Notes: generated by a model not told the origin, from the sequence alone. Shown: positions 6,086-63,437, counted from the first letter of the stretch. The stretch: 64,000 nt of DNA from an uncultured Bacteroidota bacterium (GCA_913060705.1 CAJXTX010000003.1:1-64000); one strand, 5' to 3'. Numbers and translations: made by a program.

Positions 6086-6088
6086 GTA

Positions 6089-18600: not shown

Positions 18601-18706
18601 ATCAATTGGTTTATTATGAAAAAATATAGGCATATTAGGCTTCTGATCAAGCGATTCATTAAGGATTTACACAAAATACCCTAGTTTTAACACTCTTTTT
18701 AACTTT

Positions 18707-19819: not shown

Positions 19820-19822
19820 AAA

Positions 19823-19851
19823 AATCGCCCCTCTCAGGGCGATTCGTTTTT
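19823..19851. terminator. Rho-independent terminator
   Basis: AATCGCCC-ctctca-GGGCGATT followed by CGTTTTTT; A-tract on the other side. Confidence 0.75.
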
Positions 19852-19870
19852 TCTCAGTGAGATAAGGGAC

Positions 19871-20269: not shown

Positions 20270-20383
20270 GTCAATTGGTTTTAAAGGTCAAAAGGTAGGC
20301 TTTAAATCGCTTTTTACAGGGTATAGAACTGTTAAAGTCAACAGATTGGACTGTTAAAAAACGAAGGATGTTCGGCATGATTC

Positions 20384-20414
20384 TTTGACACTACCTGAGA
20401 CTATCTTATCTTTT
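20384..20414 (+). promoter_or_regulatory. putative Bacteroidota-type promoter (-33 TTTG / -7 TATCTTTT)
   Basis: TTTG (20384-20387), N19, TATCTTTT (20407-20414; 7/8 to TAnnTTTG); expected TSS would lie about at the start codon. Confidence 0.35.
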
Positions 20415-20419
20415 CGAGT

Positions 20420-21487
20420 ATGACCGATAATAAACCCATTAAAATCCTAGTTGTAGGCTGCGGCAACATGGGGGCCTCCCATGCGAAAGCGTATGAAAAA
20501 CATCCTGGCTTTGAAATATGTGGTTTGGTCTCTAGGGGGTCTAGCAATCAAACGCTCAACGATGCGCTTCACGTTTCTTACCCCTTATACAACGATTACG
20601 AAAAAGCCTTAAGTGCAAGTAAGCCCGATGCCGTTTGTATTTCAACCTATCCTGAAACACACGAACCGTATACCTTAATGGCCTTAGAACACGGATGCCA
20701 TGTGTTCTTAGAGAAACCTATTGCCACAACGGTTGAAGGCGGACGACGCATTAGTGAAAAGGCCCATGTGCTTGATAAGAAAGTGGTTGTTGGCTACATA
20801 CTCAGACATCATCTTGTGTGGAAGCGCTTTATTGAAGAAGCGCAAAAGATGGGAAAACCACTTGTGATGCGCATGAACCTGAATCAACAAAGTCAAGGCT
20901 ACATGTGGGACGTACACCGCAGTTTAATGGCTTCTTTGAGTCCTATTGTAGATTGTGGCGTACATTATTTAGATGTCATGTGTCAAATGACAAAAGCCAA
21001 ACCCGTAAGTGTATCGGCTATAGGGGCGCGACTGACAGACGATATTCCTACAGACAATTACAATTACGGACAACTCCAAATTCGTTTTGACGACGGATCG
21101 GTTGGGTGGTACGAGGCCGGATGGGGACCAATGGTAAGCGAAACCGCCTTTTTCGTTAAAGATGTATTCGGCCCAAAAGGAAGCGTTTCACTCACTCAAG
21201 ATCAACAACGTTCTGATTGCGTAGACGGTCACTCGAAGGCAGATTTGATGCACATCCACCATGCAGCCATTGATGAAAACAACACCTTTCTTAAAGAAGA
21301 CGAGTATATTCGATTCGACCAAAGTCCAGACCATCAAGACTTATGCGACAACGAGCAGGCGTATTTCTATGATGCCATTACTCAAAATATAGACCTTAGC
21401 TCACATTTAAACGATGCGGTTACAAGCCTTCAAATTGCCTTGGCCTGCGATCAATCTGTAAAAGAACAACAAACCATATTACTTTAA
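20420..21487 (+). CDS. Gfo/Idh/MocA family oxidoreductase
   Basis: KILVVGCGNMGASHAKAYEKH Rossmann; HVFLEKPIATTVEGG (EKP motif). Confidence 0.92.
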   Translation: MTDNKPIKILVVGCGNMGASHAKAYEKHPGFEICGLVSRGSSNQTLNDALHVSYPLYNDYEKALSASKPDAVCISTYPETHEPYTLMALEHGCHVFLEKPIATTVEGGRRISEKAHVLDKKVVVGYILRHHLVWKRFIEEAQKMGKPLVMRMNLNQQSQGYMWDVHRSLMASLSPIVDCGVHYLDVMCQMTKAKPVSVSAIGARLTDDIPTDNYNYGQLQIRFDDGSVGWYEAGWGPMVSETAFFVKDVFGPKGSVSLTQDQQRSDCVDGHSKADLMHIHHAAIDENNTFLKEDEYIRFDQSPDHQDLCDNEQAYFYDAITQNIDLSSHLNDAVTSLQIALACDQSVKEQQTILL

Positions 21488-21497
21488 TTTTCTCCAT

Positions 21498-22973
21498 ATG
21501 AAAAGACTTCTTACCCTTTGTGTATTGATTATGGCAGGCACTGCGATAGCGCAGCGCAGCTTACCCGCCGACACCCTATCCATTAAAACAGACCGCATCC
21601 GTGTAGGGTCGGAGTGGCTAGAATATTCTGTTGAAGTAGGCACTCAGCCCGTTTGGGATACTGATGGCAGTGAAATTGCCTATTTGCAATACACCTATTA
21701 CAAACGCTCTGGCGTGAATAGCGAAACGCGTCCGCTGATCATGAGCTTCAATGGGGGCCCTGGATCTGGCTCAGTATGGATGCATTTGGCGTACACCGGG
21801 CCAAAGGTATTAGTGGTTGACGACGAAGGATTTCCCGTTCAGCCCTACGGTGTAAAAGACAATCCTCATACGGTGCTCACCGAGGCTGATATCGTGTTCA
21901 TCAACCCGGTGAATACGGGTTATTCTAGAACGATTCCGCTTTCAGGCAAAGAAGTAGACCGCAAGAAGTTCTTCGGAATCGATGCAGACATCACCTATTT
22001 GGCAGAGTGGTTGAACACCTTCGTTACGCGACACAATAAATGGCGTGCACCGAAATACATTATAGGAGAAAGCTATGGAGGCACACGTGTAATGGGATTA
22101 GCACGAACGCTTCAAGAAGCGCAATGGATGTATTTGAACGGTGTGATCATGGTAAGCCCAGCAGACTATCAAGTCTTGCGTGTGGGTGGCCCAGTTTCAG
22201 AAGCCCTCAACCTCCCTTACTACTCTGCAGCAGCCTGGTACCACAAGCAGCTCTCTGCTGACTTACAGCAAATGCCTTTAGAACAACTTCTTGAAGTCAC
22301 AGAAGGGTTCACGGTAGACACACTGATCCCCGCATTATCCAAAGGAGGGTCGCTTGCGGATGATGAGCGCAACCAGATCGCAGCCGACATGGCTCGTTAT
22401 ACGGGTCTAAGCAAACAAGACATTATGGGTCTAAACCTTTCGGTTCCTACAGGCTTCTTCTGGAAGAATTTACTTAAAGACGAAGGCTTCACAGTCGGAC
22501 GCCTCGATAGCCGTTACAAAGGTATTGACAAAGAAGGCGTAGGAATGAGACCCGACTACAATTCTGAGCTCACCTCATGGTTGCATAGCTTTACTCCGGC
22601 GATCAATTATTATTACAACGAAGTCTTAGGATTCAAAACGGATGTGAAATACAATATGTTCGGACCCGTTCGTCCGTGGGAAGACGATCGCGTCAATACC
22701 CGTGAAGACCTTCGCGCCGCAATGGCCATGAACCCCTATTTACACGTTTTGAATCAATCGGGATACTTTGACGGAGCGACCACTTATTTCAATGCGAAGT
22801 ACACCTTGTGGCAAATCGATCCGAGCGGAAAACTCAACGATCGAATGGAATTCAAAGGGTACCACTCAGGGCATATGATGTACCTGCGTTCAGAAGACCT
22901 CAAGTCAGCGAATGCCGATCTAAAGTCATTTATCAAAAAGACCCAAACCAACGGAAAGCCCGCTAAATACTAG
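21498..22973 (+). CDS. S10 serine carboxypeptidase family protein, secreted
   Basis: MSFNGGPGSGSVWMHLAYTGP, IGESYGGTRV, C-terminal YHSGHMMY. Confidence 0.92.
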   Translation: MKRLLTLCVLIMAGTAIAQRSLPADTLSIKTDRIRVGSEWLEYSVEVGTQPVWDTDGSEIAYLQYTYYKRSGVNSETRPLIMSFNGGPGSGSVWMHLAYTGPKVLVVDDEGFPVQPYGVKDNPHTVLTEADIVFINPVNTGYSRTIPLSGKEVDRKKFFGIDADITYLAEWLNTFVTRHNKWRAPKYIIGESYGGTRVMGLARTLQEAQWMYLNGVIMVSPADYQVLRVGGPVSEALNLPYYSAAAWYHKQLSADLQQMPLEQLLEVTEGFTVDTLIPALSKGGSLADDERNQIAADMARYTGLSKQDIMGLNLSVPTGFFWKNLLKDEGFTVGRLDSRYKGIDKEGVGMRPDYNSELTSWLHSFTPAINYYYNEVLGFKTDVKYNMFGPVRPWEDDRVNTREDLRAAMAMNPYLHVLNQSGYFDGATTYFNAKYTLWQIDPSGKLNDRMEFKGYHSGHMMYLRSEDLKSANADLKSFIKKTQTNGKPAKY

Positions 22974-22990
22974 CGGGTTTCCCCTTTTTT
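22955..22990 (+). terminator. Rho-independent terminator
   Basis: CCCGCTA-aatac-TAGCGGG followed by TTTCCCCTTTTTT; the stem contains the S10 stop codon. Confidence 0.65.
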
Positions 22991-23010
22991 ATACCTAACC
23001 ACACCGCTTA

Positions 23011-25179
23011 ATGAATCGTTATTTTCCCCTCGCCCTGCTCCTGTTTCTAGGAGGGCTTTTGGCACCCTTAAATGCTCAGGTAAATGCCAAAGATTATAGA
23101 TTGGCTATAGAAAAGATCAGTGAAAAGATTGTCATTGACGGTGTTCTAGACGAACCGGCTTGGAATAGAGCTCAAGTGGCTAAAGACTTCTTTATGATCA
23201 CGCCGGTGGATACCGGCAGAGCACGGCAGCATTCAGAAGCACGGGTAGCTTTTGATGACGAATACCTCTACATTTCTGTCGTCTTTTATAATAACGCCGT
23301 GAAAGGCCCCTACGTGGTCGAATCGTTCAAGCGCGATTTTTCATTCGGAAAGAACGACAACTTATTAATCGCCATAGATCCTTTTGACAATCAGACCACC
23401 GGCTTCTCATTCGGACTCAACGCCTACGGCGCCCAATGGGACGGAACCATGTTTGACGGACGAGGCGTTGACCTCAACTGGGACACAAAGTGGTACTCTG
23501 AAGTGCGCTTTGACGAAGACAAGTGGGTGGGTGAGATGGCCATTCCGTTTAAATCGATTCGTTACGACGAAACCATTAAAGAATGGGGAATCAACTTTGG
23601 CCGACTCGATCTAAAGGCCAGCGAAAAATCAAGCTGGGCACCCGTTCCGAGACAATTTCCTTCGGTTTCGTTGGCGTTTGCTGGGCGATTGGTATGGGAC
23701 ACCCCTCCTCCTAAGCAAGGCGTAAATGCTTCGTTCATTCCTTATGTGTCGAGCATTTCAGAAGGAACCAATCTCACCGAAGACGATAGTAAAGTAAAAA
23801 TGGGGGCAGACCTCAAATACACCCTTACTACGGCTTTGAACCTTGATGTTACGCTTAATCCTGATTTCTCTCAAGCAGAGGTCGATCAGCAGGTGACCAA
23901 TCTTGATCGTTTTGAACTGTTCTTTCCCGAGCGACGCCAGTTCTTTCTTGAAAACGCGGATCTATTTTCAAACTTCGGTTACCGCACCATCCGCCCTTTT
24001 TTCTCACGTCGTATAGGTCTTAATGTGCCTATTGTTGCCGGTGCGCGTCTCAGCGGAAATCTCGATGAAAACTGGCGTGTGGGGCTTATGAACATCCAGA
24101 CCAAAGCTGATGAATTACAGGGCCTTGGTGCCGAAAACTACGGTGTAATTAGTCTTCAGCGAAAGGTTCAGGAGCGGTCAAATATTAACTTCTTGCTTGT
24201 CAACAAAGAAGCGCCCAATACCGATGCCTCGGTCTCAGAACGCTACCATAGAAACGCCGGGATTGAATACAACTATTTCTCTGAAAACAACCAATACAAC
24301 GGAAAAGTGATGGCGCTGCGATCAATCAATCCAGACCCTGCTAAAACGGGGACAGTGATCGCCTCTCACCTTGAACATCAGTCTATCCGATGGATATGGC
24401 GTATACAACAAGAATACGTGTCAAACACCTTCAGTGCTGACGTAGGTTTCGTACCCCGAACCAACTACCATAAATTCGAAGGCTCTTTGGGTCACCTGGT
24501 ATATACAGCTTCTAAAACCAATCCTTTGCTGTCTCATGGTCCAAGCTACACGCGTACCTATTTCTTTGACCTCGATTGGCACAAGACCGATCAGGTAGAC
24601 ACCTTCAGCTATATTTTTAATTTTCAAGACCGCAGTCGATTCGTACTAGCAGGAGCGCGAAGCGCCATTGATCTTTTGAGCGATTTTGATCCGCTTCGAA
24701 ATGGTATAGCAGAATTAAAAGCCGGAACCTCTCATGAGTGGACGAATCTTCGACTTTCTTACGATTCAAAACCTCAAAATCTTTTCACGTATTCGCTAGA
24801 CGCCATTTTAGGAGGCTACTATGCTAACGGAAAGCGCAATGCTTTTATCGGTGAATTTGGCTACCGCGTTCAGCCCATACTCGAATTGAGTTCGGTCATC
24901 AATTACAACCAATTTGACCTCCCGCAACCGTGGAACGATCAATCGTTTTGGCTGGTCGGCTTGAAGGCGAACCTGACACTAACCGACAATTTATTCTTCT
25001 CGAATCTGTATCAATATAACGAACAGGTTGATCTATGGAATTTCAACTCAAGACTGCAATGGCGCTATAAGCCTGCCTCTGATATTTTCTTGGTCTTTAA
25101 TAGCAATGAGGTCACCATTCCTTCATTTTCGAGTGGATGGAATCTCACCTTTAAAATCAACTATTGGCTCAATCTATAA
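23011..25179 (+). CDS. DUF5916 domain-containing protein (CBM9-like N-term plus C-terminal beta-barrel-like region)
   Basis: KIVIDGVLDEPAWNRAQVAKDFFMITPVDTGRA; DVTLNPDFSQAEVDQQVTNLDRFELFFPERRQFFLENADLFSNFG. Confidence 0.9.
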   Translation: MNRYFPLALLLFLGGLLAPLNAQVNAKDYRLAIEKISEKIVIDGVLDEPAWNRAQVAKDFFMITPVDTGRARQHSEARVAFDDEYLYISVVFYNNAVKGPYVVESFKRDFSFGKNDNLLIAIDPFDNQTTGFSFGLNAYGAQWDGTMFDGRGVDLNWDTKWYSEVRFDEDKWVGEMAIPFKSIRYDETIKEWGINFGRLDLKASEKSSWAPVPRQFPSVSLAFAGRLVWDTPPPKQGVNASFIPYVSSISEGTNLTEDDSKVKMGADLKYTLTTALNLDVTLNPDFSQAEVDQQVTNLDRFELFFPERRQFFLENADLFSNFGYRTIRPFFSRRIGLNVPIVAGARLSGNLDENWRVGLMNIQTKADELQGLGAENYGVISLQRKVQERSNINFLLVNKEAPNTDASVSERYHRNAGIEYNYFSENNQYNGKVMALRSINPDPAKTGTVIASHLEHQSIRWIWRIQQEYVSNTFSADVGFVPRTNYHKFEGSLGHLVYTASKTNPLLSHGPSYTRTYFFDLDWHKTDQVDTFSYIFNFQDRSRFVLAGARSAIDLLSDFDPLRNGIAELKAGTSHEWTNLRLSYDSKPQNLFTYSLDAILGGYYANGKRNAFIGEFGYRVQPILELSSVINYNQFDLPQPWNDQSFWLVGLKANLTLTDNLFFSNLYQYNEQVDLWNFNSRLQWRYKPASDIFLVFNSNEVTIPSFSSGWNLTFKINYWLNL

Positions 25180-25188
25180 GCAGCTCTT

Positions 25189-27792
25189 ATGAAATACACT
25201 AGTGCGTTTTTTATCGTTCTTTTTAGCCTCCTTTCTAGCCTAAAACTCAGTGCGCAAGAAATCGATTGGCGCTTTCAAGACACCGACTTAAGCTTTGAAA
25301 CACGCACAGAGATCCTCGTCAAGCAGCTTACCCTTGAAGAAAAAATCAGTCAATTGGTCCATGAGGCTCCTGCAATAGAGCGGCTACATATTCCTTCGTA
25401 CAATTGGTGGAATGAAGCCCTCCACGGGGTAGCCCGCAGCGGGTATGCTACGGTTTTTCCACAGTCGATTTCGGTTGCGGCCTCCTTTGACAAAGACCTT
25501 CTCGAGCGTATCGGCTCAGTGACATCAGACGAAGCACGTGCCAAGCACCACGACTTTATTCGCAAAGGAAAGCGAGGAATTTACACTGGGCTCACCTTCT
25601 GGTCTCCGAACATCAATATCTTTAGAGACCCACGTTGGGGACGCGGCCATGAAACCTATGGTGAAGACCCTTACCTCACCGGAATGCTCGCCTCTTCATT
25701 TATCAGAGGACTACAAGGAGACGATCCACGGTATTTGAAGACCATTGCCACCTCAAAACACTTTGCCGTGCATTCAGGGCCAGAGTCTTTGCGACACGGA
25801 TTCGACGTTGACGTTTCAGATGTTGACCTCTACGAGACCTATTTAGAGGCATTTCGCATGACGGTGGTCGATGCCAAAGTGCAATCGATCATGAGCGCGT
25901 ACAATCGTTTCAGGGGTGACCCAGCATCCGCCAGTTCTTTTTTACTAGACGAGGTGCTTCGTGAGCGTTGGGGATTCGAAGGATACGTGGTATCAGATTG
26001 TGGTGCCATCGGTGACATTCTCTACAATCACAAAATTGTAGATACGAAAGAAGAGGCTGCACGTATCTCACTCGAAGGCGGATGTGACCTCAACTGCGGA
26101 TCTACCTATCTCAGTCTTTTATCGCTCTCCGAACAAGGGCTATTGAATCAAGAAGCTTTAGACAAAGCGGTGTCACGACTCTTCTTAAGTCGTTTTAAAT
26201 TGGGTATGTTCGATCCTGAAGAAAAGGTTCCCTTCAGTAGACTTCCCATAGATCTTGTAGGCGCCCAAACACACCTTGACCTCGCAAGAGAGGCTGCTCA
26301 AAAAAGTATTGTGCTCCTTAAAAACGAGAACAATCTACTACCACTAGATAAGAACAAACTCAAAAAAATAGCGGTCATCGGCCCGAATGCCGACAATTGG
26401 GAGTCACTTGTAGGCAACTACCACGGGACACCTATCGATCCTGTGACTTTCTTAAACGGACTAGAGCGCAAGTTGAGCCCTGCCGTCGAGATCGAATATG
26501 CGAGAGGATCTCATTTCAGTGACGAGGTCTTTGCTCTAGAACCCATCGCCTCCGTATTTTTTGAAACAGCCGACGGACGTCAGGGGCTGGATGCTGAATA
26601 TTACGATAATATGGAGTGGAAAGGCGAACCTGTCTTAAGACGCCGAGACGACGCGATTGATTTTTGGTGGGAACACGACCCTATTTCAAAAGAACTTTCT
26701 GATTTTTTTTCGGTTAAATGGACCGGATACCTCATCCCGCCGGCCACAGGAGAATACGAATTGGCCACTTTCGCAAAAATGGGCATGAGCCTTCAAATTG
26801 AAGGCATTGAAATCAGCAACGGAAAAGGCATGGTCCACGAGACTACTTACGCTAGAGAAAAGATCCGACTCGAAAAAGGTAAACGCTATCCCATTGAGGT
26901 GCGCTATTTCAGCGACGACTCGAATGCAGAATGCCGATTGCTCTGGACCCGAACAGATACAGACCTAGCATCGGAGGCCATAGAACTTGCTCGAGAAGCA
27001 GATCTAAGCATTATCGTTTTGGGACTCAGTCAACGGTTAGAGGGTGAAGGTGGCGATCGTGAAGACATCGCCCTTCCGGAGGTTCAAACTGACCTTCTCA
27101 AGGCCATTCATGCTACCGGAAAACCTGTGATAGTGGTGCTAAATGCAGGTTCTGCACTAGCCGTGAATTGGGCTAAGGAGCACGTAGACGCTCTTTTAAG
27201 TGTAGGGTATCCGGGAGAGCAGGGGGGTAACGCACTTGCCGACGTGCTTTTAGGAGATTACAACCCCGCAGGAAGATTACCCATTACCTATTACACCTCT
27301 CTTGAAGAGTTGCCCGCCTTCGAAGACTACGACATGCGTGATCGCACCTATAAATATTACAAAGGAGCGCCCTTGTTTCCGTTTGGATATGGATTGAGTT
27401 ACACCCGTTTCAGCTACAGCGACCTGAAGACTGCTTCAAGCCTTAAGGCCGGAGAACCCCTTACGGTCAAATTCACCTTGACCAACAGCGGAGAACGTGC
27501 CGGAGACGAGGTGGTGCAACTCTACCTTAGCGACCTTAAGGCAAGTACCCCAAGACCGCAACACCAGCTAGTCGCTTTTGAGCGCGTTCACCTGCAACCT
27601 AAGGAGCATCGTGAGCTTGAGTTTCAAATCGATCCGCGCGCCTTTTCACTTATTAATAGCGAGGGTAAAAGAGTCATTGAACCCGGAGCTTTTGAGTTAC
27701 ATATAGGTGGAGGTCAGCCACAATTTATCGATTCTGATCAGCGTATTCAGAAGCGCATTAGCGTAAAAGGACATCATTCATTAGCGCTCTAA
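25189..27792 (+). CDS. glycoside hydrolase family 3 protein with inserted PA14 domain and C-terminal Fn3-like domain
   Basis: NEALHGVARSG, FSPNINIFRDPRWGRGHETYGEDPYLTG, YVVSDCGAIGD; PA14-like GLDAEYYDNMEWKGEPV...VKWTGYLIPPATGEYELAT; FPFGYGLSYTRFSYSDL. Confidence 0.93.
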   Translation: MKYTSAFFIVLFSLLSSLKLSAQEIDWRFQDTDLSFETRTEILVKQLTLEEKISQLVHEAPAIERLHIPSYNWWNEALHGVARSGYATVFPQSISVAASFDKDLLERIGSVTSDEARAKHHDFIRKGKRGIYTGLTFWSPNINIFRDPRWGRGHETYGEDPYLTGMLASSFIRGLQGDDPRYLKTIATSKHFAVHSGPESLRHGFDVDVSDVDLYETYLEAFRMTVVDAKVQSIMSAYNRFRGDPASASSFLLDEVLRERWGFEGYVVSDCGAIGDILYNHKIVDTKEEAARISLEGGCDLNCGSTYLSLLSLSEQGLLNQEALDKAVSRLFLSRFKLGMFDPEEKVPFSRLPIDLVGAQTHLDLAREAAQKSIVLLKNENNLLPLDKNKLKKIAVIGPNADNWESLVGNYHGTPIDPVTFLNGLERKLSPAVEIEYARGSHFSDEVFALEPIASVFFETADGRQGLDAEYYDNMEWKGEPVLRRRDDAIDFWWEHDPISKELSDFFSVKWTGYLIPPATGEYELATFAKMGMSLQIEGIEISNGKGMVHETTYAREKIRLEKGKRYPIEVRYFSDDSNAECRLLWTRTDTDLASEAIELAREADLSIIVLGLSQRLEGEGGDREDIALPEVQTDLLKAIHATGKPVIVVLNAGSALAVNWAKEHVDALLSVGYPGEQGGNALADVLLGDYNPAGRLPITYYTSLEELPAFEDYDMRDRTYKYYKGAPLFPFGYGLSYTRFSYSDLKTASSLKAGEPLTVKFTLTNSGERAGDEVVQLYLSDLKASTPRPQHQLVAFERVHLQPKEHRELEFQIDPRAFSLINSEGKRVIEPGAFELHIGGGQPQFIDSDQRIQKRISVKGHHSLAL

Positions 27793-27832
27793 TTCTAAGA
27801 ATGACTATATTAAAGTATTGATTAACAGAGAG

Positions 27833-28948
27833 ATGAAGCTATTTAAGGTATTTTTTTTAGCCCTAGCGTTGAACGCATTCGCCGTTTCAAGTGCACTGGC
27901 TCAATCTTCAGAAGAGGAACCCAAACTTAGATTAGGAATAATTGGACTTGTTCACGACCACGTCCATTGGATCTTCAATCGAGACAATCAAGATCTTGAG
28001 GTGGTGGGAATTGTTGAGACTAACCAGTCTGCAATCGACAAATTCAAAGGCCGCTACGACCTCGATGATTCGTTGTTTTTCTCAAGCTATGAGGAGCTCA
28101 TGCGCAAGGCGCAACCACAAGCAGTTTCTGCCTTTAACGAGACGGCTGAACACCTCGAGGTGGCTGCGTTCTTTTTGCCAAAAAATATCCCGGTAATGGT
28201 TGAAAAACCCTTGGCCACCTCGTACAAAGATGCACAGCAGATGGTGCAGCTTTCTGAAAAACACCAAGTTCCACTGCTCGTCAATTACGAGACCTCTTGG
28301 TACGAAAGCACCTACGAAACCAAGGCCTTAATCGAAGACGGAACATTCGGAAAACCAAAGAAGCTCGTCTTCAATACAGGCCATATGGGGCCGGTAGAAA
28401 TTGGCTGCTCTCCTGAATTTCTAGCGTGGCTCACCGATCCAGTGTTAAACGGAGGTGGAGCTGTAACCGATTTTGGATGCTACGGGGCCAATATCAGCAC
28501 ATGGCTTCTGGATGGAAGAACCCCTGAGCGTGTTACGGCTGTCCTCAAACAAAGCAAGCCTTCGATCTATCCAAAGGTAGACGACGACACGACGATCATT
28601 CTCGATTACAAAGACTTACAGGTAGTCATTCAGGCCTCATGGAACTGGACACATCACCGTAAAGACATGGAGGTCTATCTCAACAAGGCCTCGATTTATG
28701 CCCTTGATGCTAGCCGTATGCGGATATTAGATTACGATTCAGGTAAAGAGCAATCGCACCAGCCTGCTTCGATTGAAGCCTACCAAAAAGATCCTTTTCG
28801 TTTATTGGTAGAGGTAGTACAACAGGGCAGAGAAATCGACCCGCAATCGCTCTACGGCACTGCCAACAATCTAACGGTGGTCAAACTTTTAGAACTCGCA
28901 AAACGCTCGGCCGAATTAGGACGCACAGTAGCGTGGTCAGAGCTGTAA
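27833..28948 (+). CDS. exported Gfo/Idh/MocA family oxidoreductase
   Basis: Sec signal MKLFKVFFLALALNAFAVSSALAQ; LRLGIIGLVHDHVHWIF; VMVEKPLATSYKDA; ATG at 27833 preferred over TTG 27818. Confidence 0.85.
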   Translation: MKLFKVFFLALALNAFAVSSALAQSSEEEPKLRLGIIGLVHDHVHWIFNRDNQDLEVVGIVETNQSAIDKFKGRYDLDDSLFFSSYEELMRKAQPQAVSAFNETAEHLEVAAFFLPKNIPVMVEKPLATSYKDAQQMVQLSEKHQVPLLVNYETSWYESTYETKALIEDGTFGKPKKLVFNTGHMGPVEIGCSPEFLAWLTDPVLNGGGAVTDFGCYGANISTWLLDGRTPERVTAVLKQSKPSIYPKVDDDTTIILDYKDLQVVIQASWNWTHHRKDMEVYLNKASIYALDASRMRILDYDSGKEQSHQPASIEAYQKDPFRLLVEVVQQGREIDPQSLYGTANNLTVVKLLELAKRSAELGRTVAWSEL

Positions 28949-52839: not shown

Positions 52840-53286
52840 TTACTTCTTGGCCTGTTTGTACCAAGTCTGAGTACGTCCTAAAAGAGAAATTCCGAGATAG
52901 CCTCGCACGTTTAGCGTGGTCGGATCTTCTAAAGTTAGGGTGCAAGAATACTGCTTTCCGTTTGCGGGATCCAATATCTTTCCATCTGTCCAGGCTTCAC
53001 CGTCCCACTCAAGTCCTTCGATGATAGTCAACCCTTCGATGGGCTGATTCTTTTTAGCTCCCTTGCACTCAACACACAGCTTGCCTTGATCCTCTTCAAG
53101 CAGCAGTCTTGAGATTTGTCCGTACAGTTTTCCATTCTCAACATAAATGGTAATCTCTGACTTGCGCTGATTGGTGACATCGTCAACCGAAACCCAATTT
53201 CCTTCAAAATCACTTTTTGATACGCTTTGTGCTCCAAGGGGTAGCGCACAGAGCAGCGTAAGTGCAACAATAACAATTCTCTTCAT
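52840..53286 (-). CDS. DUF2147 domain-containing protein, secreted
   Basis: GNWVSVDDVTNQRKSEITIYVENGKLYGQI...GKILDPANGKQYSCTLTLEDPTTLNVRGYLGISLLGRTQTWYK. Confidence 0.9.
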   Translation of the reverse strand: MKRIVIVALTLLCALPLGAQSVSKSDFEGNWVSVDDVTNQRKSEITIYVENGKLYGQISRLLLEEDQGKLCVECKGAKKNQPIEGLTIIEGLEWDGEAWTDGKILDPANGKQYSCTLTLEDPTTLNVRGYLGISLLGRTQTWYKQAKK

Positions 53287-53293
53287 ATCTCTT

Positions 53294-53971
53294 TTATTTC
53301 AGCAGTTGATTTAAAGTATTCATCACAATGGGCTCCATCACCTTGTATCCTTCTTCATTCGGATGGACCGGATCGTAGCCCCACTCTGGTTTCAACCCCT
53401 TCTTATCGTCTACCATCGGGCTGTAATAATCGACATAAGGCACCTGATAGTGCTCGGCCATTTCTCGAAGCATGCGATTGAGCTCTATAACGCTCTCTGT
53501 TGGCGTGATCCGTTGTCTCCACGGGAATGAATTTGCGGGTAAAACCGAGCACAGCACAGGAGTGATCTCATTGGCGAGAGACAGCTGAACCATACTTTCG
53601 AGATTCTTTGCAATATCTTCTAATGAAATCGGTCCAGTGTTCTCAGCAATGTCATTGATTCCGGCAAGGATAACGACCGCCTTAGGATTGAGATCAATCA
53701 CGTCTTGCCTGAATCTTAGCAACATTTGAGGAGTGGTTTGTCCGCCAATCCCTCGGTTGATGAAGTGATTGCGACTGAAAAATTCGGGGCGCATTGAAAT
53801 CCATCCTTGAGTAATTGAATTGCCCATAAATACCACCGAAGTCTGGTCGGTTAGCTGCATGAGCGAGTCATTTTTAGCCTTGAAATATTCCATTGCAGGC
53901 CAGTCTTGAGCCTGAAGGGGTCCGGCAGCGAAAAAAAGCGCTAAAAACGCTAGAGTTATCGTCTTATTCAT
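53294..53971 (-). CDS. SGNH/GDSL hydrolase family protein, secreted
   Basis: VVFMGNSITQGW, FINRGIGGQTTPQMLLRF, VVILAGINDIAENTG, YDPVHPNEEGY blocks I, II, III, V. Confidence 0.93.
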   Translation of the reverse strand: MNKTITLAFLALFFAAGPLQAQDWPAMEYFKAKNDSLMQLTDQTSVVFMGNSITQGWISMRPEFFSRNHFINRGIGGQTTPQMLLRFRQDVIDLNPKAVVILAGINDIAENTGPISLEDIAKNLESMVQLSLANEITPVLCSVLPANSFPWRQRITPTESVIELNRMLREMAEHYQVPYVDYYSPMVDDKKGLKPEWGYDPVHPNEEGYKVMEPIVMNTLNQLLK

Positions 53972-54734
53972 ACATATTGGTTTGATCAAGCTCACATAAA
54001 TCGCATATAAGCTCTGAAATTTTATCGGTCACATCTTCGACATAACGTTGGCCCTTTTCAGCAGTAGATCGACGCGGATCCCCTATACCTGTATCGGCAC
54101 TCACTGCAGACCATTTACGCTCTGCCCAAGCCCATCGTTCTCGAATGGCCTTGACCTTGTGCTTGCGCTCAGCACCGTCTCCGGCTTCTTCAAGCGGCAA
54201 TACTAAATCAGGATGAAGGTGCATCATGATAGAGGTCTCCATTTCGTCGGCATGGTCACCCTCCTTTTCAAAGTAAAGACGCTTGTCGAGCATTTGAAAC
54301 CAACTGCAGGTGACTAACATCATCTCCGGAAAAAGCAGTCCAAGCTCTCGCAACATGGTCTTAAAATCGTTTCCACCGTGGCTGTTAAAGACGAGAAGTT
54401 TCTTGACTCCTTGACGATCTAAAACGGTAATCAGGTCTTTTAAGATGGCCAACTGAGTGCTCGGGTTGAGATTCATGTCGAGGTAAATATCACTCTGACC
54501 GGTATTGACTCCGTAAGGCATGGTAGGTAAGACCACAAAATTGGCCCCTTTGGTGAGCGCTTTTTCTCCGGCTATTCGCAATAAACCATCTGCCTCGTAC
54601 ACATCGGTTCCGTAGGGCAAGTGATAATTATGAGCTTCTACGGCACCCCAACCTAAGATAGCGAGCTCAAAACGGTGCGTTTTGAGCCGCTTCCAGTTAC
54701 TCTCTTTCAGATCAAATAGAGAAGCGTTGGTCAT
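53964..54734 (-). CDS. creatininase family protein
   Basis: LAILGWGAVEAHNYHLPYGTDVYEADGL, VLPTMPYGVN, LLVFNSHGGNDFK, DHADEMETSIMMHLHPDLV. Confidence 0.92.
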   Translation of the reverse strand: MTNASLFDLKESNWKRLKTHRFELAILGWGAVEAHNYHLPYGTDVYEADGLLRIAGEKALTKGANFVVLPTMPYGVNTGQSDIYLDMNLNPSTQLAILKDLITVLDRQGVKKLLVFNSHGGNDFKTMLRELGLLFPEMMLVTCSWFQMLDKRLYFEKEGDHADEMETSIMMHLHPDLVLPLEEAGDGAERKHKVKAIRERWAWAERKWSAVSADTGIGDPRRSTAEKGQRYVEDVTDKISELICDLCELDQTNMYE

Positions 54735-54737
54735 CGA

Positions 54738-56084
54738 TTAGAAACTTCGGTAATCGCCACTCAAATACTGGTTGGCCTCTTCTTCTTCAAAAGCCGAAGC
54801 CTGCTTATTGTAGTGGAGGGTTTTACCCGGGAACCTTCCTGCAATGACTCCTAATAGAATGGTCTCTGTAAGTCTCGCAGAATAATCAAATGGTGCAGAA
54901 GTTTCTGCTGTTCCGAGACAAGCGTCTATGAATTGATGGTAGTGTTTAGGGGATTCAGCCGCGTAATCGCGCACGGGTTCTCCCATAATACCATCAGTAT
55001 CGTAGTCTGCTATGGTATACTCTGCATAGGACCCATCAACAATCAGTTTAGGAAGTTGCTGAAAGTGAGGTAACAACAAGCGTTGACCGTTCTCACCGAT
55101 GAACATAGCACCTTGATCAGGCAATGCATCTCCATTAGGCAATACCAATTCGTCGGTAATCACTGGACCCTCAACGCCATCAAACCATACCCACTCAAAT
55201 TCAGGAGTCGTATAGGCAGTACCCTCGAAGGTATAGTGAACCTCGTTACGCTCGGGATAACCGTATCCGTTTGACTCACGGCAATAGGTAGTGATGGTAT
55301 CCGGAACATCGATATCTAACGCATTGTACGGGGTATCAAAAATGTGAACACCCATATCGCCAAGTGTTGCACAGCCGTAATCCATTAGTTTTCTCCAGTT
55401 CATCGGATGGTAGTAACCGTCTTTGTAGGGACGCTCTGATGAGGTTCCTAACCACAAGTTCCAATCCAATCGTTCAGGGACAGCATCTGCTCCTTCTGGA
55501 ACGGGGCCGTCGTATCCCCAATTCTTATTCGACCAGGCGATGACTTTGCTCACCTTTCCGATGATCCCTTTGCGAATCAATAAGGTGGCAAGTTTGTAAT
55601 CGTAGAAAGAGTGTACTTGAATTCCCATCTGTGTAATGAGGCCTTTCTCGTTTGCAACGCGGCGCATTTCACGCGATTCAGACACATAGTGTGTCAAAGG
55701 TTTCTGACAATACACAGGCTTATCGTATTCCATGGCCAACAAAGAGGCCGGAGCATGGGTGTGATCAGGTGTTGAAACCACGACAGCGTCAACCTGGTCA
55801 GCAAACTGTTCCATCATGGTTCTGTAATCGGCAAACACCTGTGCATCTGGAAAGAGCGCATGTGCGGCCTTTAAGTGTTCGCTGTCTACGTCGCATAAGG
55901 CGGCAACCTTTACCTGCGGATGCGAGGCAATAGCCTCAAGATCAGCCATCCCCATATTTCCGACGCCAACATGAGCCGTTCGAATCATTTTTGGTGCAGA
56001 AGAACCGCACGACCAAATCGATAACGGTAGAGCTGTGGCTCCTGCCGCTAGCGTCATCGTTTTTAAAAATTCTCTTTTTTTCAT
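54738..56084 (-). CDS. Gfo/Idh/MocA family oxidoreductase with Tat/lipo-type export signal
   Basis: MKKREFLKTMTLAAGATALPLSIWSCGSS; IRTAHVGVGNMGMADLEAI; YDKPVYCQKPLTHYVSESREM. Confidence 0.92.
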   Translation of the reverse strand: MKKREFLKTMTLAAGATALPLSIWSCGSSAPKMIRTAHVGVGNMGMADLEAIASHPQVKVAALCDVDSEHLKAAHALFPDAQVFADYRTMMEQFADQVDAVVVSTPDHTHAPASLLAMEYDKPVYCQKPLTHYVSESREMRRVANEKGLITQMGIQVHSFYDYKLATLLIRKGIIGKVSKVIAWSNKNWGYDGPVPEGADAVPERLDWNLWLGTSSERPYKDGYYHPMNWRKLMDYGCATLGDMGVHIFDTPYNALDIDVPDTITTYCRESNGYGYPERNEVHYTFEGTAYTTPEFEWVWFDGVEGPVITDELVLPNGDALPDQGAMFIGENGQRLLLPHFQQLPKLIVDGSYAEYTIADYDTDGIMGEPVRDYAAESPKHYHQFIDACLGTAETSAPFDYSARLTETILLGVIAGRFPGKTLHYNKQASAFEEEEANQYLSGDYRSF

Positions 56085-56086
56085 CG

Positions 56087-56866
56087 TTATAATTCTTTGA
56101 TTTTGATATTTCTAAACCAGAGTGAGCTGCCGTGATCTTGAAGCCCAATAAACCCTTTTTTGAACTTGCCGTAATCCGGAGCTAATCCCCATTTTCCGTT
56201 CGATTTTTTCGCATTCCAGTCTTCAGACCAAGGAACAAAACTCAGCAACAACTCTCCATTTAACCAATGCTCAACACGTTCAGGAGTAAAGACGATTTTT
56301 GACGAATTCCACTCTCCTGCTGGGTTCAGGTGCTTCTTTTCAGGGTCTGGAGTATACATCGCATAATCGGCCCCTGTGGATTGCAAGGGCTGTAATTTTT
56401 CAGGGTTTTCAGTTACTCCGATGCTGCGGTTGTACCCTTCAATATCATGAAAGTCGGTATAGTGAAGATCATCGATCAATTGGTATTCAGGAGACACTTC
56501 AGGAATTCCCGAATAGCCTTCTTGTACGTGGTAGAAGATTCCACTGTTTCCTCCAGGAGGGATCTTCCATTCGAGATAGAGTTCAAAATTCTCAAATTCT
56601 TTCGCCGCATAAATCAGATCGCGACTGCCTTTGTAGTCGTAATCCTCTTCTTTCACCATTTCAGTGCTAAAGGTGAGCTCTCCGTCGACAATCCCCCATC
56701 CCGGAGGCAAGCGATCGCCGTTGTAGGCACGCCATCCGTCAAGACTAGATCCGTCAAAAAGGGTGATCCACTCTGAAGTCGCTTCGGCCTCATTACTTTT
56801 TTCTGCAGCAGGTCCGCACGAGAGCAAGAGCAGGGTGGCACATCCGAATGCTAAAATGTTTCTCAT
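56087..56866 (-). CDS. DUF1080 (3-keto-disaccharide hydrolase) protein, lipoprotein
   Basis: LLLLSCGPA; LFDGSSLDGWRAYNGDRLPPGWGIVDGEL; LYLEWKIPPGGNSGIFYHVQEG; GFIGLQDHGSSLWFRNIKIKEL. Confidence 0.92.
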   Translation of the reverse strand: MRNILAFGCATLLLLSCGPAAEKSNEAEATSEWITLFDGSSLDGWRAYNGDRLPPGWGIVDGELTFSTEMVKEEDYDYKGSRDLIYAAKEFENFELYLEWKIPPGGNSGIFYHVQEGYSGIPEVSPEYQLIDDLHYTDFHDIEGYNRSIGVTENPEKLQPLQSTGADYAMYTPDPEKKHLNPAGEWNSSKIVFTPERVEHWLNGELLLSFVPWSEDWNAKKSNGKWGLAPDYGKFKKGFIGLQDHGSSLWFRNIKIKEL

Positions 56867-56869
56867 AGT

Positions 56870-57457
56870 TTAAAGTTCAGTGAGTTGAATATTACGCCAT
56901 TTTACTTTGATACCGCCTCCGTCGTGAATTTGAAGGGCGATACCACCTTTTCCATCGCCTATCTTTTCATCAGTCAGGCTAACCATCTCATGTCCGTTTA
57001 AAAAGGTGGTAACTGTATCTCCATTGCAGATAATACGCATGTGATTCCACTCTCCCATCTTGAGGTAGGCGTCCTTTTCTTTTTCTGGCTTAATAAGCCA
57101 CCCCCGTCCGTACGACTCGTAAATTCCACCGGTGTCGTGATCTGGCGGAGCTACCTCAACTTGCCATCCGCTTACAACAGTACCTTCAACCGTTGATCTG
57201 AAAAAGACACCGCTGTTACCGTCTGCCTCTTGTAAAAACTCTAACTCGAGCACAAAATCATCGTAATAGGCGTCGGTAGAGAGATAGCCATAGGCCTTGT
57301 CTGGCCCACTTTCGCAAACTAAAAGTCCGTCTTCTACATACCATTTCTCGGTGCCGTTAATGGTCCATCCGTCGAGGTTTTTACCGTTGAACAATGAGAC
57401 TTGGGCCGACATTCCGACCGTCGCACAGGCCAATAAACTGAGTAAAAGGTGTTTCAT
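56870..57457 (-). CDS. DUF1080 protein, secreted
   Basis: VSLFNGKNLDGWTINGTEKWYVEDGLL; LELEFLQEADGNSGVFFRS; GGIALQIHDGGGIKVKWRNIQLTEL. Confidence 0.92.
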   Translation of the reverse strand: MKHLLLSLLACATVGMSAQVSLFNGKNLDGWTINGTEKWYVEDGLLVCESGPDKAYGYLSTDAYYDDFVLELEFLQEADGNSGVFFRSTVEGTVVSGWQVEVAPPDHDTGGIYESYGRGWLIKPEKEKDAYLKMGEWNHMRIICNGDTVTTFLNGHEMVSLTDEKIGDGKGGIALQIHDGGGIKVKWRNIQLTEL

Positions 57458-57467
57458 TGAAATTGAG

Positions 57468-58562
57468 TTATAGTTTGATATAGATTTTCTTCTTAAAAAG
57501 GTACCAGGTTGGCAATCCGATCACCCCTACGTAGAGGAGCGCGTAGACTAGTGAGGCCAGTTTAGCGGCAATTCCCCAACTAGTTAAGGCCCCAACAAAG
57601 AGTTTACTGATCGAAAATCCTAGAAAGAAGTCGCTGTAAAAGATTGAAATAAGCACGCTCGATAGCGCATACGATACAATAGGATTTTTGCCAAAGGCTT
57701 CTGCTAATTGGATAGAACGTCCTGCTTTATTTTGATCGAACAGTAAACTGCATAGTACCCAGCCTTGAAGAGATACCCCCGCCGTTACCAGCACAAACGA
57801 GCTAGACCATAAGGCCTTATTGATAGGGAACAAATACCCCAATAGATAACCTGCACCTAATAAAAGAGCACCCAGCCTCATCATCCGGAACAATTTGGTC
57901 GTCTGCTCTTCTCTCTTTAAATAGAGATGTGCGGCAGTCATTCCAAGCAAGGTCGTACACACAGCACCAACGGTGCTTAATAAGCCCTCAGGATCCCAGG
58001 TTTTCTGATAAAGCACCCCAGGCAAAAGGAGATTGTCTAGGTAGTTTGCCCAGTTTGCCATTGGTTTTGAAAGGTCTGGCATTCCTACCCCCGGAACAGG
58101 AACGAATACCATGATTACCGTATACAACGCAAGCAACCCAAGCGCTAAACGTAATTGATCTGAACGCTTGGTGAACAGATAAATACTCGCGCATATAAAG
58201 TATACCGTAGCAATGCGTGGCAAAACGCCAACAAAGCGCACATGGCCCAGATCAAAATCGGGCCATATCCATAAAAAAATTCCAACCGCATAAATCTTCA
58301 GACTTCTGAAAAAGATCTTCCTAAAGGAGGCGCCCAAAGCTTGCGCTTCGATGCGCTTGTGCATCGACAATACAATCGAAACCCCAACAATGAAAAGAAA
58401 GCTCGGAAAGACCATATCGGTGGGTGTAATTCCGTTCCATTCGGCGTGTAATAAGGGAGCATAGACAGCACTCCAGCTGCCAGGACTATTGACCACGATC
58501 ATTAACATGATCGTCAATCCCCTTAAGATATCCACCGACAAGACTCTTGCGTTTGTAGACAT
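57468..58562 (-). CDS. NagX/DUF5009-like multi-pass acyltransferase-family membrane protein
   Basis: RVLSVDILRGLTIMLMIVVNSPGSWSAVYAPLLHAEWNGITPTDMVFPSFLFIVGVSI plus about 10 TM segments. Confidence 0.85.
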   Translation of the reverse strand: MSTNARVLSVDILRGLTIMLMIVVNSPGSWSAVYAPLLHAEWNGITPTDMVFPSFLFIVGVSIVLSMHKRIEAQALGASFRKIFFRSLKIYAVGIFLWIWPDFDLGHVRFVGVLPRIATVYFICASIYLFTKRSDQLRLALGLLALYTVIMVFVPVPGVGMPDLSKPMANWANYLDNLLLPGVLYQKTWDPEGLLSTVGAVCTTLLGMTAAHLYLKREEQTTKLFRMMRLGALLLGAGYLLGYLFPINKALWSSSFVLVTAGVSLQGWVLCSLLFDQNKAGRSIQLAEAFGKNPIVSYALSSVLISIFYSDFFLGFSISKLFVGALTSWGIAAKLASLVYALLYVGVIGLPTWYLFKKKIYIKL

Positions 58563-58620
58563 GGTTTAATGGTTTTTCTGGGGTATCTTTAAGTAATCCT
58601 TAAAAATTGCTATTAATATT

Positions 58621-59992: not shown

Positions 59993-61918
59993 ATGGCTAC
60001 GACTCCTACGACAGAGCTTACCTATAAAGCTCCGGGAACTCATGAAGAAAACCGTTACGAAAAACTGCACAATGTTATAGTCCCTTCTGCCGCAAAAGGC
60101 TCTGAACTCATCGCCCAAGAAATTGCCGACATCATTCGCGCAAAACAAGCGAAAGGAAAAAATTGTGTACTGGGTCTTGCAACGGGCTCTTCTCCTCTTA
60201 GCGTATACGCTGAATTAGTGCGTATGCACAAAGAAGAAGGCTTGAGCTTTCAGAACGTGATCACCTTTAATCTGGACGAATATTGGCCGATGACCAAATC
60301 AAATCTGCAGAGTTATCATTACTTCATGCATGAAAACCTCTTTGACCACATCGACATCAAGCCAGAGAATATTCACGTGCCTGACGGAGAAGTCAAAGCG
60401 AATCAGGTACGCAGCTATTGTCAAGATTACGAGGCAAAAATTGCGGCTGCAGGAGGACTCGATTTTCAGCTTCTAGGAATTGGTAGAACAGGGCATATTG
60501 GGTTCAATGAGCCCGGATCAAACCAAAACTCTAGAACCCGCTTGGTAAACCTTGACCACATTACAAGAGAAGATGCGGCCGAAGGGTTTCAAGGATTAGA
60601 GTTTGTGCCTAAACGCGCCATCACCATGGGTATTGCTACAGTTCTTTCTGCAAAACGCATCGTGCTTATGGCCTGGGGGCAAAAGAAAAGCGCTGTAGTA
60701 CAACAAGCCATTGAAGGGTCTGTAAGCAGTCAATTGCCTTCGTCCTTTTTACAAATGCACAAGAACACCACCTTGGTGCTCGATGAAGAGGCTGCTGCAG
60801 AACTAACCCGCATCAAAACACCATGGATTGTTCAAACCTGCGACTGGAACGACAAATTAAAATATCAAGCCGTTGTATGGCTTTGCCGCAAGACAGGTAA
60901 ATCGGTGTTAAAACTCACCGAGTCTGACTACAATGAAAACTCCCTCGCCGACCTCCTAGAAATGCAATCGGTATACGATCTAAACATTGAGATTTTTAAC
61001 CGCCTCCAACATACAATCACCGGATGGCCAGGCGGAAAACCCGATGCAGACGATTCACACCGACCAGAACGCGCCCGACCTAAATCAAAGAGAGTAATTA
61101 TCTTCAGTCCTCACCCCGACGACGATGTAATCTCTATGGGGGGCACATTAGATCGATTGATCTCTCAAGGCCATGAGGTACACGTAGCCTACCAGACCTC
61201 GGGTAGCATTGCCGTGTCCAACCAAGAGGCCCTAAAGTTTATAGAAGTTGCTTGCGACATGATGCTTGGCGCTGAGAGTAAAACCATCCGAGAGTTACGT
61301 TCAAAAATTGAAAAACTCAAAGACGGAGAGATTCCATCTGCAGAAATTCGCAACCTCAAAACCATTATTAGACAGCGCGAAGCAATCGCTGCGACCCGCT
61401 ATCTCGGTCTTCCGGATGAAAATGTTCATTTCATGAAATTGCCGTTTTATGAGACTGGGGCAGTTAAAAAATCTCCTATTTCGCAAGACGACATCGACAT
61501 CATGAATCACTTGATCAAGAGCATTCGACCCCACCAGATCTATGCCGCAGGTGATTTGGCTGATCCACACGGAACGCACAGATTGTGTATCGAAGCGCTT
61601 CAACAATCGTTAAGTCAATTGCGCAAAGAGCCCTTCTTGAAAGACTGTTGGGTGTGGTTGTATCGCGGCGCATGGCACGAATACGAGCCCTACGAAATCG
61701 ATATGGCTGTGCCGATGAGTCCTGCTCAAGTGCGAAGAAAGAGACGTGCCATTTTCTTCCACCAAACGCAAAAAGACGGTGTCATGTTCCAAGGGAACGA
61801 CGCTAGGGAGTTCTGGGTAAGGGCCGAAGACCGTAATCGTGAAACCGCAGATATTTATCGACAATTAGGACTGTCTGATTACGCTGCCATTGAAGCCTTT
61901 AAACGTTATTACTATTAA
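59993..61918 (+). CDS. nagB: fusion: glucosamine-6-phosphate deaminase (NagB) + PIG-L/LmbE deacetylase domain
   Basis: N-term LGLATGSSPLSVYAEL, VITFNLDEYWPM, GIGRTGHIGFNEPGS; C-term IIFSPHPDDDVISMGGTLDRL and DPHGTHRLC. Confidence 0.92.
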   Translation: MATTPTTELTYKAPGTHEENRYEKLHNVIVPSAAKGSELIAQEIADIIRAKQAKGKNCVLGLATGSSPLSVYAELVRMHKEEGLSFQNVITFNLDEYWPMTKSNLQSYHYFMHENLFDHIDIKPENIHVPDGEVKANQVRSYCQDYEAKIAAAGGLDFQLLGIGRTGHIGFNEPGSNQNSRTRLVNLDHITREDAAEGFQGLEFVPKRAITMGIATVLSAKRIVLMAWGQKKSAVVQQAIEGSVSSQLPSSFLQMHKNTTLVLDEEAAAELTRIKTPWIVQTCDWNDKLKYQAVVWLCRKTGKSVLKLTESDYNENSLADLLEMQSVYDLNIEIFNRLQHTITGWPGGKPDADDSHRPERARPKSKRVIIFSPHPDDDVISMGGTLDRLISQGHEVHVAYQTSGSIAVSNQEALKFIEVACDMMLGAESKTIRELRSKIEKLKDGEIPSAEIRNLKTIIRQREAIAATRYLGLPDENVHFMKLPFYETGAVKKSPISQDDIDIMNHLIKSIRPHQIYAAGDLADPHGTHRLCIEALQQSLSQLRKEPFLKDCWVWLYRGAWHEYEPYEIDMAVPMSPAQVRRKRRAIFFHQTQKDGVMFQGNDAREFWVRAEDRNRETADIYRQLGLSDYAAIEAFKRYYY

Positions 61919-61928
61919 ACGAATCGTT

Positions 61929-63437
61929 ATGCTACGTTCTTTGTCCTTACTATCTCTATTTACGCTTCTGTTTGTTTCTTGCACCCCAACAGTACCGGAC
62001 GGCAAGGTGTACGAACAACTTATGCCGGTAGCAGAAACGGTCGAACTTAAAGACGGAAGTTTTACGCTAAAAGGCAGCACTACCTTTAGCTTGAATGGTT
62101 TTGACCAAGAAGCAGCATCTTCTTTCAGTGCGGTGCTTCTTGACCAAGGAGGCATTCATAATTTGAATCTGATCCAAGCAGAAGAAAACGAAGCTGCATT
62201 GAGATTCACGATTGACACTGATTTAGAAGAAGAGGCTTATGAATTGAACATCGATTCATCCGGAATAACCGTTGAGGCAGGAGCCGCATCCGGCGCTTAT
62301 TTCGGTTGGCAAACCATAAGACAAATCCTACTGCTTCAGGCAGACACAGAGCAATCTCAGGTGCTAAGAGCAGTTCACATCTCAGATCAACCCCACTACG
62401 GATATCGCTCGGTGATGTTAGACGTGGCGCGTCATTTTTTTGATGCCCCGACGGTAAAAGAATTGATCGATCAAATCACGCTTTACAAGGTAAACACCCT
62501 TCACCTGCACTTATCTGACGATCAAGGTTGGCGCATTGAAATCAAGAAATGGCCTAATCTAACCGCTCATGGCGGCCTCACCGAAGTGGGCGGAGGTGAA
62601 GGAGGATACTACACTCAAGAACAGTACAACGACCTGGTAGCATATGCCCAAGATCGATTCATTACGGTGGTTCCAGAAATCGATCTTCCTGGTCATACCA
62701 ATTCAGCGCTCTCTAGCTATGCTGAATTAAACTGTGACGGAGTGGCTCCTGATTTGTACACCGGTATTGAAGTAGGATTCTCAACTCTCTGTGCCGACAA
62801 AGAAATCACCTACACGTTCTTGAGTGACGTCTTTGAAGAGTTGGCACAGATGACTCCTGGACCTTATTTACACATTGGAGGTGACGAATCTCACGTCACT
62901 GAAGAAGACGATTATGTGAAAATAGTAGACTTCGCCTTGAATAAGGTGAAAGAACTTGGTAAAACACCGGTGGGCTGGGATGAAATTTCACATGGGGCGA
63001 TTGACCAAACGACCGTGTCTCAATACTGGGCGAGTCAAGAAAACACTAAGAAAGCATACGACAAAGGAGCACAGCTCATCATTTCGCCTGCCATTCACGC
63101 CTATCTTGATATGAAGTACGATTCCCTGACGCCTATCGGATTGAAATGGGCAGGGTACCTACCTATTGACAAGGCCTACGATTGGTCACCCGATCAATTG
63201 GTGGAAGGAATTTCTCCAGATCGTATCATCGGTACCGAGGCACTCTTATGGACTGAGACCGTAACAACATCTGCAGATATTCAGTACCTTATGTTTCCAA
63301 GAGTACTCGGAATAGCTGAAATTGGTTGGACCTCGTCCGAGCAACGCGACCTCGCTTCGTACCGTACGAGGCTCAAAAGCCAGTTGAAAGTATTAGATCA
63401 ACTTGGTATTGGTTACTACAGCGATTCAGAGGAATAG
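61929..63437 (+). CDS. beta-N-acetylhexosaminidase, GH20, lipoprotein
   Basis: GYRSVMLDVARHFF, LHLHLSDDQGWRIEIKKWPNL, VVPEIDLPGHTNSAL, LHIGGDESHV (catalytic D-E); LFVSC lipobox. Confidence 0.94.
   Translation: MLRSLSLLSLFTLLFVSCTPTVPDGKVYEQLMPVAETVELKDGSFTLKGSTTFSLNGFDQEAASSFSAVLLDQGGIHNLNLIQAEENEAALRFTIDTDLEEEAYELNIDSSGITVEAGAASGAYFGWQTIRQILLLQADTEQSQVLRAVHISDQPHYGYRSVMLDVARHFFDAPTVKELIDQITLYKVNTLHLHLSDDQGWRIEIKKWPNLTAHGGLTEVGGGEGGYYTQEQYNDLVAYAQDRFITVVPEIDLPGHTNSALSSYAELNCDGVAPDLYTGIEVGFSTLCADKEITYTFLSDVFEELAQMTPGPYLHIGGDESHVTEEDDYVKIVDFALNKVKELGKTPVGWDEISHGAIDQTTVSQYWASQENTKKAYDKGAQLIISPAIHAYLDMKYDSLTPIGLKWAGYLPIDKAYDWSPDQLVEGISPDRIIGTEALLWTETVTTSADIQYLMFPRVLGIAEIGWTSSEQRDLASYRTRLKSQLKVLDQLGIGYYSDSEE

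Follow-up and report, generated by a model that had tools for sequence, protein, structure and literature searches.

A seven-gene putative operon predicted to join stepwise glycoside cleavage to amino-sugar salvage in an uncultured flavobacterium

The window analysed here is a 64,000-nucleotide stretch from the metagenome-assembled genome (MAG) of an uncultured flavobacterium, with positions counted from its first letter; the source assembly comprises 1.59 Mb in 66 contigs, and near-identical orthologues come from Flavobacteriaceae MAGs. At 52840-58562, on the minus strand, it holds a block of seven genes that combines a predicted 3-keto-glycoside-cleaving core with a membrane acyltransferase and three further genes. 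The genes of the block and their context are listed below.

Seven-gene block and promoter region

57468..58562, minus strand: first gene, NagX/HGSNAT-like polytopic acyltransferase (PF07786, 32.1 bits, cut-off 22)
56870..57457, minus strand: DUF1080a, predicted exported protein of the 3-keto-disaccharide hydrolase family, 195 amino acids (PF06439, 145.3 bits, cut-off 26.8)
56087..56866, minus strand: DUF1080b, predicted lipoprotein of the 3-keto-disaccharide hydrolase family, 259 amino acids (PF06439, 164.8 bits, cut-off 26.8)
54738..56084, minus strand: Gfo/Idh/MocA dehydrogenase (Gfo), predicted exported, 448 amino acids (PF01408 and PF19051)
53964..54734, minus strand: creatininase-fold metallohydrolase with an HGGN-type motif and without a signal peptide (PF02633, 187.7 bits)
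53294..53995, probable start 53971, minus strand: SGNH/GDSL acylhydrolase, predicted exported (PF13472, 106.2 bits)
52840..53286, minus strand: last gene, DUF2147 protein, predicted exported (PF09917, 106.2 bits)
58563..58620, no strand: divergent intergenic region of 58 nucleotides, the sole candidate upstream promoter region (from open-reading-frame coordinates, sequence and pattern scans)
59993..61918, plus strand: context gene, glucosamine-6-phosphate deaminase/PIG-L deacetylase fusion (NagB-PIG-L; PRK02122, 1021.7 bits)
61890..63437, plus strand: context gene, GH20 beta-hexosaminidase family (PF00728, 280.1 bits)

Recomputed open reading frames and Pfam matches, which exceed the cut-offs for every family in the block, agree with the original prediction, made from the sequence alone, in the seven co-directional genes, their families and their spacing. 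Read from the NagX side, the gaps are 10, 3, 2, 3, -8 and 7 nucleotides, where the negative value is an overlap of the creatininase-family gene with the SGNH gene that holds if the latter starts at 53971. The mechanical start of the SGNH gene is a GTG at 53995, and the ATG at 53971 yields a signal peptide (MNKTITLAFLALFFAAGPLQAQ). A convergent metallopeptidase gene, with its stop at 52838, one nucleotide from the end of the DUF2147 gene, bounds the block on that side, and the NagB-PIG-L and GH20 genes are divergent from the block with one gene in between. In G001, a congener of the source organism, the convergent gene for the met-zincin (locus L013, about 4614-6889) is divided between two overlapping frames, possibly through a frameshift or an assembly error.

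Equally tight gaps occur in relatives, as in locus L045, where NagX, DUF1080a, DUF1080b and Gfo are separated by 11, 1 and 1 nucleotides. Pattern scans inside the block found no excess of promoter-like (6 against 8.5 expected) or terminator-like patterns (6 against 6.3 expected), and a terminator-like hairpin at 53951-53937 was rejected, since it lies within the SGNH signal-peptide codons and the count is not above chance. The Bacteroidota-type promoter TTTG-N18-23-TAnnTTTG has no match upstream of NagX, its window-wide matches being at chance level, and neither the sequence nor the pattern scans revealed a clear promoter motif in 58563..58620. From this layout, the seven genes are very likely carried on one transcript.

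Export signals were judged by eye. Those of DUF2147, SGNH and DUF1080a are of the signal peptidase I type, DUF1080b has a lipobox (LLLSC), and Gfo has a twin-arginine (Tat)-like KREFLK that reads RRxF[LVI]K in some orthologues; TatC is encoded in the genome. By the same reading no export signal was found on the creatininase-family protein, which is predicted to be cytosolic. This is the distribution originally proposed, with export of all products but the creatininase and the membrane protein.

The Gfo-DUF1080 core and its history

Assignment of Gfo and the DUF1080 proteins to a 3-keto-glycoside core is supported by family membership, by invariant residues in Gfo and by the recurrence of the gene pair. 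K128, D243 and H247 of Gfo, the presumed catalytic set in this family, are invariant in 17 orthologues (alignment A1). The best NCBIfam model is the BT_2158_fam glycoside 3-dehydrogenase (NF058561), matched at 268.5 bits, under its equivalog cut-off of 750 bits, and a Pfam scan found in the protein no C-terminal domain (PF21252) of GH109, the family of NAD-dependent N-acetylgalactosaminidases. The nearest structures are the dehydrogenases 8tdf/8tdh for Gfo and 3u1x for DUF1080b, which also matches 8rr2 and 8tda; the 8td- entries reportedly come from work published in 2024 on glycoside cleavage by stepwise oxidation. DUF1080a has orthologues at 61-73% identity in several further families of Bacteroidia. 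BT2158 acts in the periplasm as a glycoside 3-dehydrogenase (PMC11300592), hydrolysis of 3-keto-glycosides is a proposed or known function of DUF1080 proteins (PMC9007349), and oxidation, elimination, hydration and reduction have been described as a single route (PMC10628242), while in DgpA, a Gfo enzyme, bound NADH is recycled with 3-oxo-glucose (PMC11239390). The core is consistent with the earlier suggestion that a glycoside is oxidised and the keto-glycoside cleaved in the periplasm; a single periplasmic pathway for the whole block does not fit the predicted cytosolic location of the creatininase-family protein.

Neighbourhoods were counted in 89 non-redundant Bacteroidota loci, each with a close orthologue of Gfo. 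In 71 of these, the gene directly upstream of Gfo on the same strand encodes a DUF1080 protein, and the pair spans Flavobacteriaceae, Saprospiraceae, Cytophagales and Chitinophagaceae. DUF1080a joins the pair in 15 loci, mostly in one sub-clade: two changes suffice to place its presence on the Gfo tree, compared with a mean of 15.1 for shuffled labels (0 of 500 shuffles were as low), and 14 of the 16 rows with DUF1080a, the window included, fall in one sub-clade that reaches Saprospiraceae, with weak support (88/36) for this deepest branch. NagX is the first gene of the set in two lineages, the genus of the window and Candidatus Arcticimaribacter. The order NagX-DUF1080a-DUF1080b-Gfo is seen again in L045, from Ca. 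Arcticimaribacter, and in L048, and the four-gene order in Ca. Arcticimaribacter is kept at 56-75% identity with gaps of 1-11 nucleotides. The linked NagX proteins form one clade (99/95), which also holds a NagX displaced from the locus in G009, a pattern consistent with a single old linkage that later came apart in some genomes. In L045 (369-1103) and L048 (161-898), an SGNH relative (46-47% identical) lies on the opposite strand, 2.4 kb from the NagX-DUF1080-Gfo block.

The full seven-gene set occurs only in the source MAG and four congeners (G001, G003, G007 and G008), and the idea that it is an ancient unit was rejected on this restriction to five congeneric MAGs. In G004, G009 and G010, DUF1080a-DUF1080b-Gfo-SGNH is kept together with the divergent NagB-PIG-L and GH20 genes, and in G002, G005 and G006 only DUF1080a-DUF1080b-Gfo is kept at the locus, with NagX and the creatininase-family gene elsewhere in the genome; the NagX of G009 is likewise away from the locus. 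These distributions therefore give a layered history, in which the pair is Bacteroidota-wide, the triad belongs to a sub-clade, the four-gene order to two lineages and the seven genes to one genus. The neighbourhood conservation that the original prediction had looked for is thus found for the core and not for the full set.

In other loci, the pair keeps company with further redox genes. A GMC oxidoreductase with a Gluconate_2-dh3 subunit adjoins it in L058, L060 and L119 also have a GMC gene, and L055, L058, L059, L065 and L119 place the pair beside a second Gfo and an AP_endonuc_2 TIM barrel; these neighbours count for a 3-keto core because they are parts of known 3-keto pathways (PMC9007349, PMC10628242). 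In L058 (9216-15344), the pair is followed by the Gluconate_2-dh3 subunit and GMC oxidoreductase, then by sugar-kinase-like and aldolase-like open reading frames, the last two recognised by their N-termini only. The source genome also has a more canonical 3-keto operon on contig C9 (L192, G000:C9, 5024-9884), with a symporter, a Gfo/Idh, an AP_endonuc_2 TIM barrel and a 476-amino-acid double-DUF1080 protein. Within the window, 17647-28948 is possibly another 3-keto/glycoside locus, with a DUF1080 gene (17647-18633, with an N-terminal extension), two Gfo/Idh genes (20420-21487 and 27818-28948) and S10-like, DUF5916 and GH3 genes.

We take BT2156 of Bacteroides thetaiotaomicron to be an AP_endonuc_2 TIM-barrel partner. 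The BT2156-BT2159 locus (PMC11300592, PMC9007349, PMC12385236) likewise places an exported Gfo/Idh beside a DUF1080 protein, but the window operon has two DUF1080 genes, has no TIM-barrel partner or second dehydrogenase, and adds NagX, creatininase-fold, SGNH and DUF2147 genes. The LacABC and DUF1080 lactose/glucoside 3-keto pathway of Caulobacter and Pedobacter (PMC9007349) shares C3 oxidation followed by a periplasmic DUF1080 protein, whereas its dehydrogenase is membrane-bound and GMC-type and that of the window is an NAD-type Gfo/Idh. The oxidation-elimination-hydration-reduction operons of Agrobacterium (GlycDH/OGE) and Bacillus (levoglucosan) follow the same stepwise deglycosylation logic with sugar-phosphate-isomerase-like (TIM-barrel) eliminases/hydratases in place of DUF1080 proteins (PMC10628242). 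The sugar-splitting core is of a known kind, and only its combination with the other genes is local and new.

NagX, the amino-sugar link and the remaining genes

Asn25 and His39 of the NagX-like protein align with Asn286 and His297 of HGSNAT (structures 8vkj/8jkv, E 1.5e-18). The known NagX, a transmembrane glucosamine N-acetyltransferase, shares the HGSNAT-type domain, the catalytic His and amino-sugar gene neighbours, and has been proposed to acetylate periplasmic glucosamine, with fitness data for glucosamine use (PMC9007349); the window protein differs in heading a 3-keto-glycoside operon and scores 164 bits with the NagX model NF046061, under the 480-bit equivalog cut-off. Its relatives lie directly after a GH20 gene (L216, L217, L221 and L156; genomes G002, G005, G006 and G238), after a NAGLU gene (L174; G300) or after a GH3-beta-lactamase gene that has ROK and NagB-PIG-L in its vicinity (L172; G055), and one adjoins NagB-PIG-L (L166; G363). 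Many other flavobacterial NagX genes are found after or beside sodium-solute (SSF) or MFS symporters.

Around the core itself, a GH109-like gene, a separate neighbour with PF21252, immediately precedes the DUF1080b-Gfo pair in 7 of the 89 loci, and in L031 the pair lies among sulfatase, GH20-like, GH109-like and GH2 genes. These contexts, with the catalytic His and gene company of NagX and the NagB-PIG-L and GH20 genes beside the operon, support an amino-sugar link without proving it. NagB-PIG-L is near the core in 5 of the 89 loci, and its proximity was rejected as proof of amino-sugar specificity, being too weak alone with 2 loci outside the genus. The amino-sugar-type substrate originally suggested thus gains in plausibility from gene context, the substrate itself staying a prediction. 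In the related triad locus L057 (3669-15602), a TonB receptor and a likely SusD precede DUF1080a-DUF1080b-Gfo, with NagB-PIG-L 2.3 kb downstream.

The creatininase-fold protein has 3lub as its nearest structure (E 1.3e-59) and does not keep the HxE motif of creatininase, its HGGN aligning with HYEN of 1q3k. It scores 70.3 bits with the creatininase equivalog TIGR04448 (cut-off 235) and is likewise under the cut-offs of the MftE and IolN models, the IolN match being weak. IolN, a 3-dehydro-scyllo-inosose hydrolase of the creatininase-fold family, has a keto-inositol as its substrate, and the window protein should therefore not be presumed to cleave amides. Orthologues occur in scattered contexts (with a fatty-acid hydroxylase, alone, beside Gfo in G577, beside SGNH in G225), and no role in the pathway follows from them. 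The G225 locus, from another genus (L191, 8027-15991), has adjacent creatininase-family and SGNH genes within an N-glycan locus that includes PNGase F, GH92, GH29, GH2 and GH20-like genes. The structures nearest to the SGNH protein, 3p94, 4iyj and 4hf7, are uncharacterised GDSL proteins, none with a known substrate. The DUF2147 protein has no assigned role, and a literature search on this family returned nothing informative. Removal of acyl and amide groups, the theme first proposed for these accessory genes, is not supported, since NagX/HGSNAT enzymes add acetyl groups and the creatininase-fold protein has a low equivalog score, no HxE motif and no signal peptide.

Proposed mechanism and alternatives

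From the observed gene content, the conserved catalytic residues and the way in which the pair, the triad and the order of the four genes are conserved, we infer that the operon encodes an exported module that cleaves glycosides stepwise, probably in a redox-neutral manner, and is linked to amino-sugar salvage; we consider this reading somewhat probable. In this module, NAD-carrying Gfo/Idh would oxidise C3 of a glycosyl residue, the two DUF1080 proteins would cleave the 3-keto-glycoside, by elimination and hydration or by hydrolysis, and Gfo/Idh would then reduce the freed 3-keto sugar and regain NAD+, so that the net reaction would be hydrolysis and no external electron acceptor would be needed. 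NagX would transfer acetyl from cytosolic acetyl-CoA to glucosamine or a close relative, N-acetylating it on the periplasmic side, and the product would enter the N-acetylglucosamine route of the neighbouring GH20 and NagB-PIG-L genes. SGNH may remove O-acyl decorations, and the creatininase-fold protein may process one of the products in the cytosol. A narrower version, in which Gfo and a DUF1080 eliminase/hydratase form a dedicated 3-keto route for hexosamine (HexN) or N-acetylhexosamine (HexNAc) glycosides and the freed amino sugar is N-acetylated across the membrane by the NagX of the same operon, appears unlikely as it stands; a literature search on 3-keto-N-acetylglucosamine catabolism turned up only a UDP-sugar paper.

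Several points weigh against the proposed module. Both Gfo, far from the BT2158 cut-off, and the NagX-like protein fall under their own equivalog thresholds; the operon has no transporter, kinase or TIM-barrel hydratase; most pair loci are without NagX, NagB or GH20, so that the core is not necessarily specific for amino sugars; and the 2 loci with NagB-PIG-L outside the genus are, by a rough estimate, little above chance. A tenable if rather unlikely alternative is that ordinary glycosides of the glucose type are the substrates of the 3-keto module, and that NagX and the other genes serve separate housekeeping or amino-sugar functions and share the promoter through chance shuffling. The pair and triad do mostly occur without NagX, NagX and the creatininase-family gene lie elsewhere in G002, G005 and G006, as does the NagX of G009, and the known DUF1080/Gfo partners work on glucosides and disaccharides (PMC11300592, PMC9007349). 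However, the four-gene order kept in Ca. Arcticimaribacter and the single clade of linked NagX proteins, with its one displaced copy, make the linkage look old rather than accidental.

That the NagX-like protein is instead a sugar importer for the periplasmic cleavage product seems quite improbable. It is distantly related to TfMurT, a putative N-acetylmuramic acid transporter (PMC9007349), its operon has no other transporter, and symporters adjoin many other flavobacterial NagX genes; yet it retains the catalytic His and Asn of HGSNAT, and a separate symporter beside NagX in those genomes would make a second importer redundant. We regard as highly improbable a role of the operon in modifying envelope glycans of the cell itself, instead of breaking down glycans as food, through C3 oxidation, NagX acetylation and SGNH deacylation. 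A membrane acyltransferase with an SGNH hydrolase is also an envelope-modification pattern, and the operon contains no SusC/SusD gene, but no glycosyltransferase, flippase or biosynthetic gene was found among the neighbours examined, which instead include GH20 and NagB, and the receptor preceding the triad in L057 is a SusC-type TonB receptor.

The preferred reading of a cleavage module joined to amino-sugar salvage would place the core on a new branch within an already known kind of oxidative glycoside cleavage, with lineage-specific attachments that point to amino sugars. Only recently has stepwise oxidative cleavage been recognised as an alternative to classical glycosidases, and few of the substrates it serves outside the gut are known. 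A DUF1080-Gfo pair that is spread across Bacteroidota, is distinct from BT2157/BT2158 and carries amino-sugar genes in some lineages offers a concrete substrate hypothesis, that of HexNAc or glucosamine glycosides, for which three or four proteins would be enough as a test.

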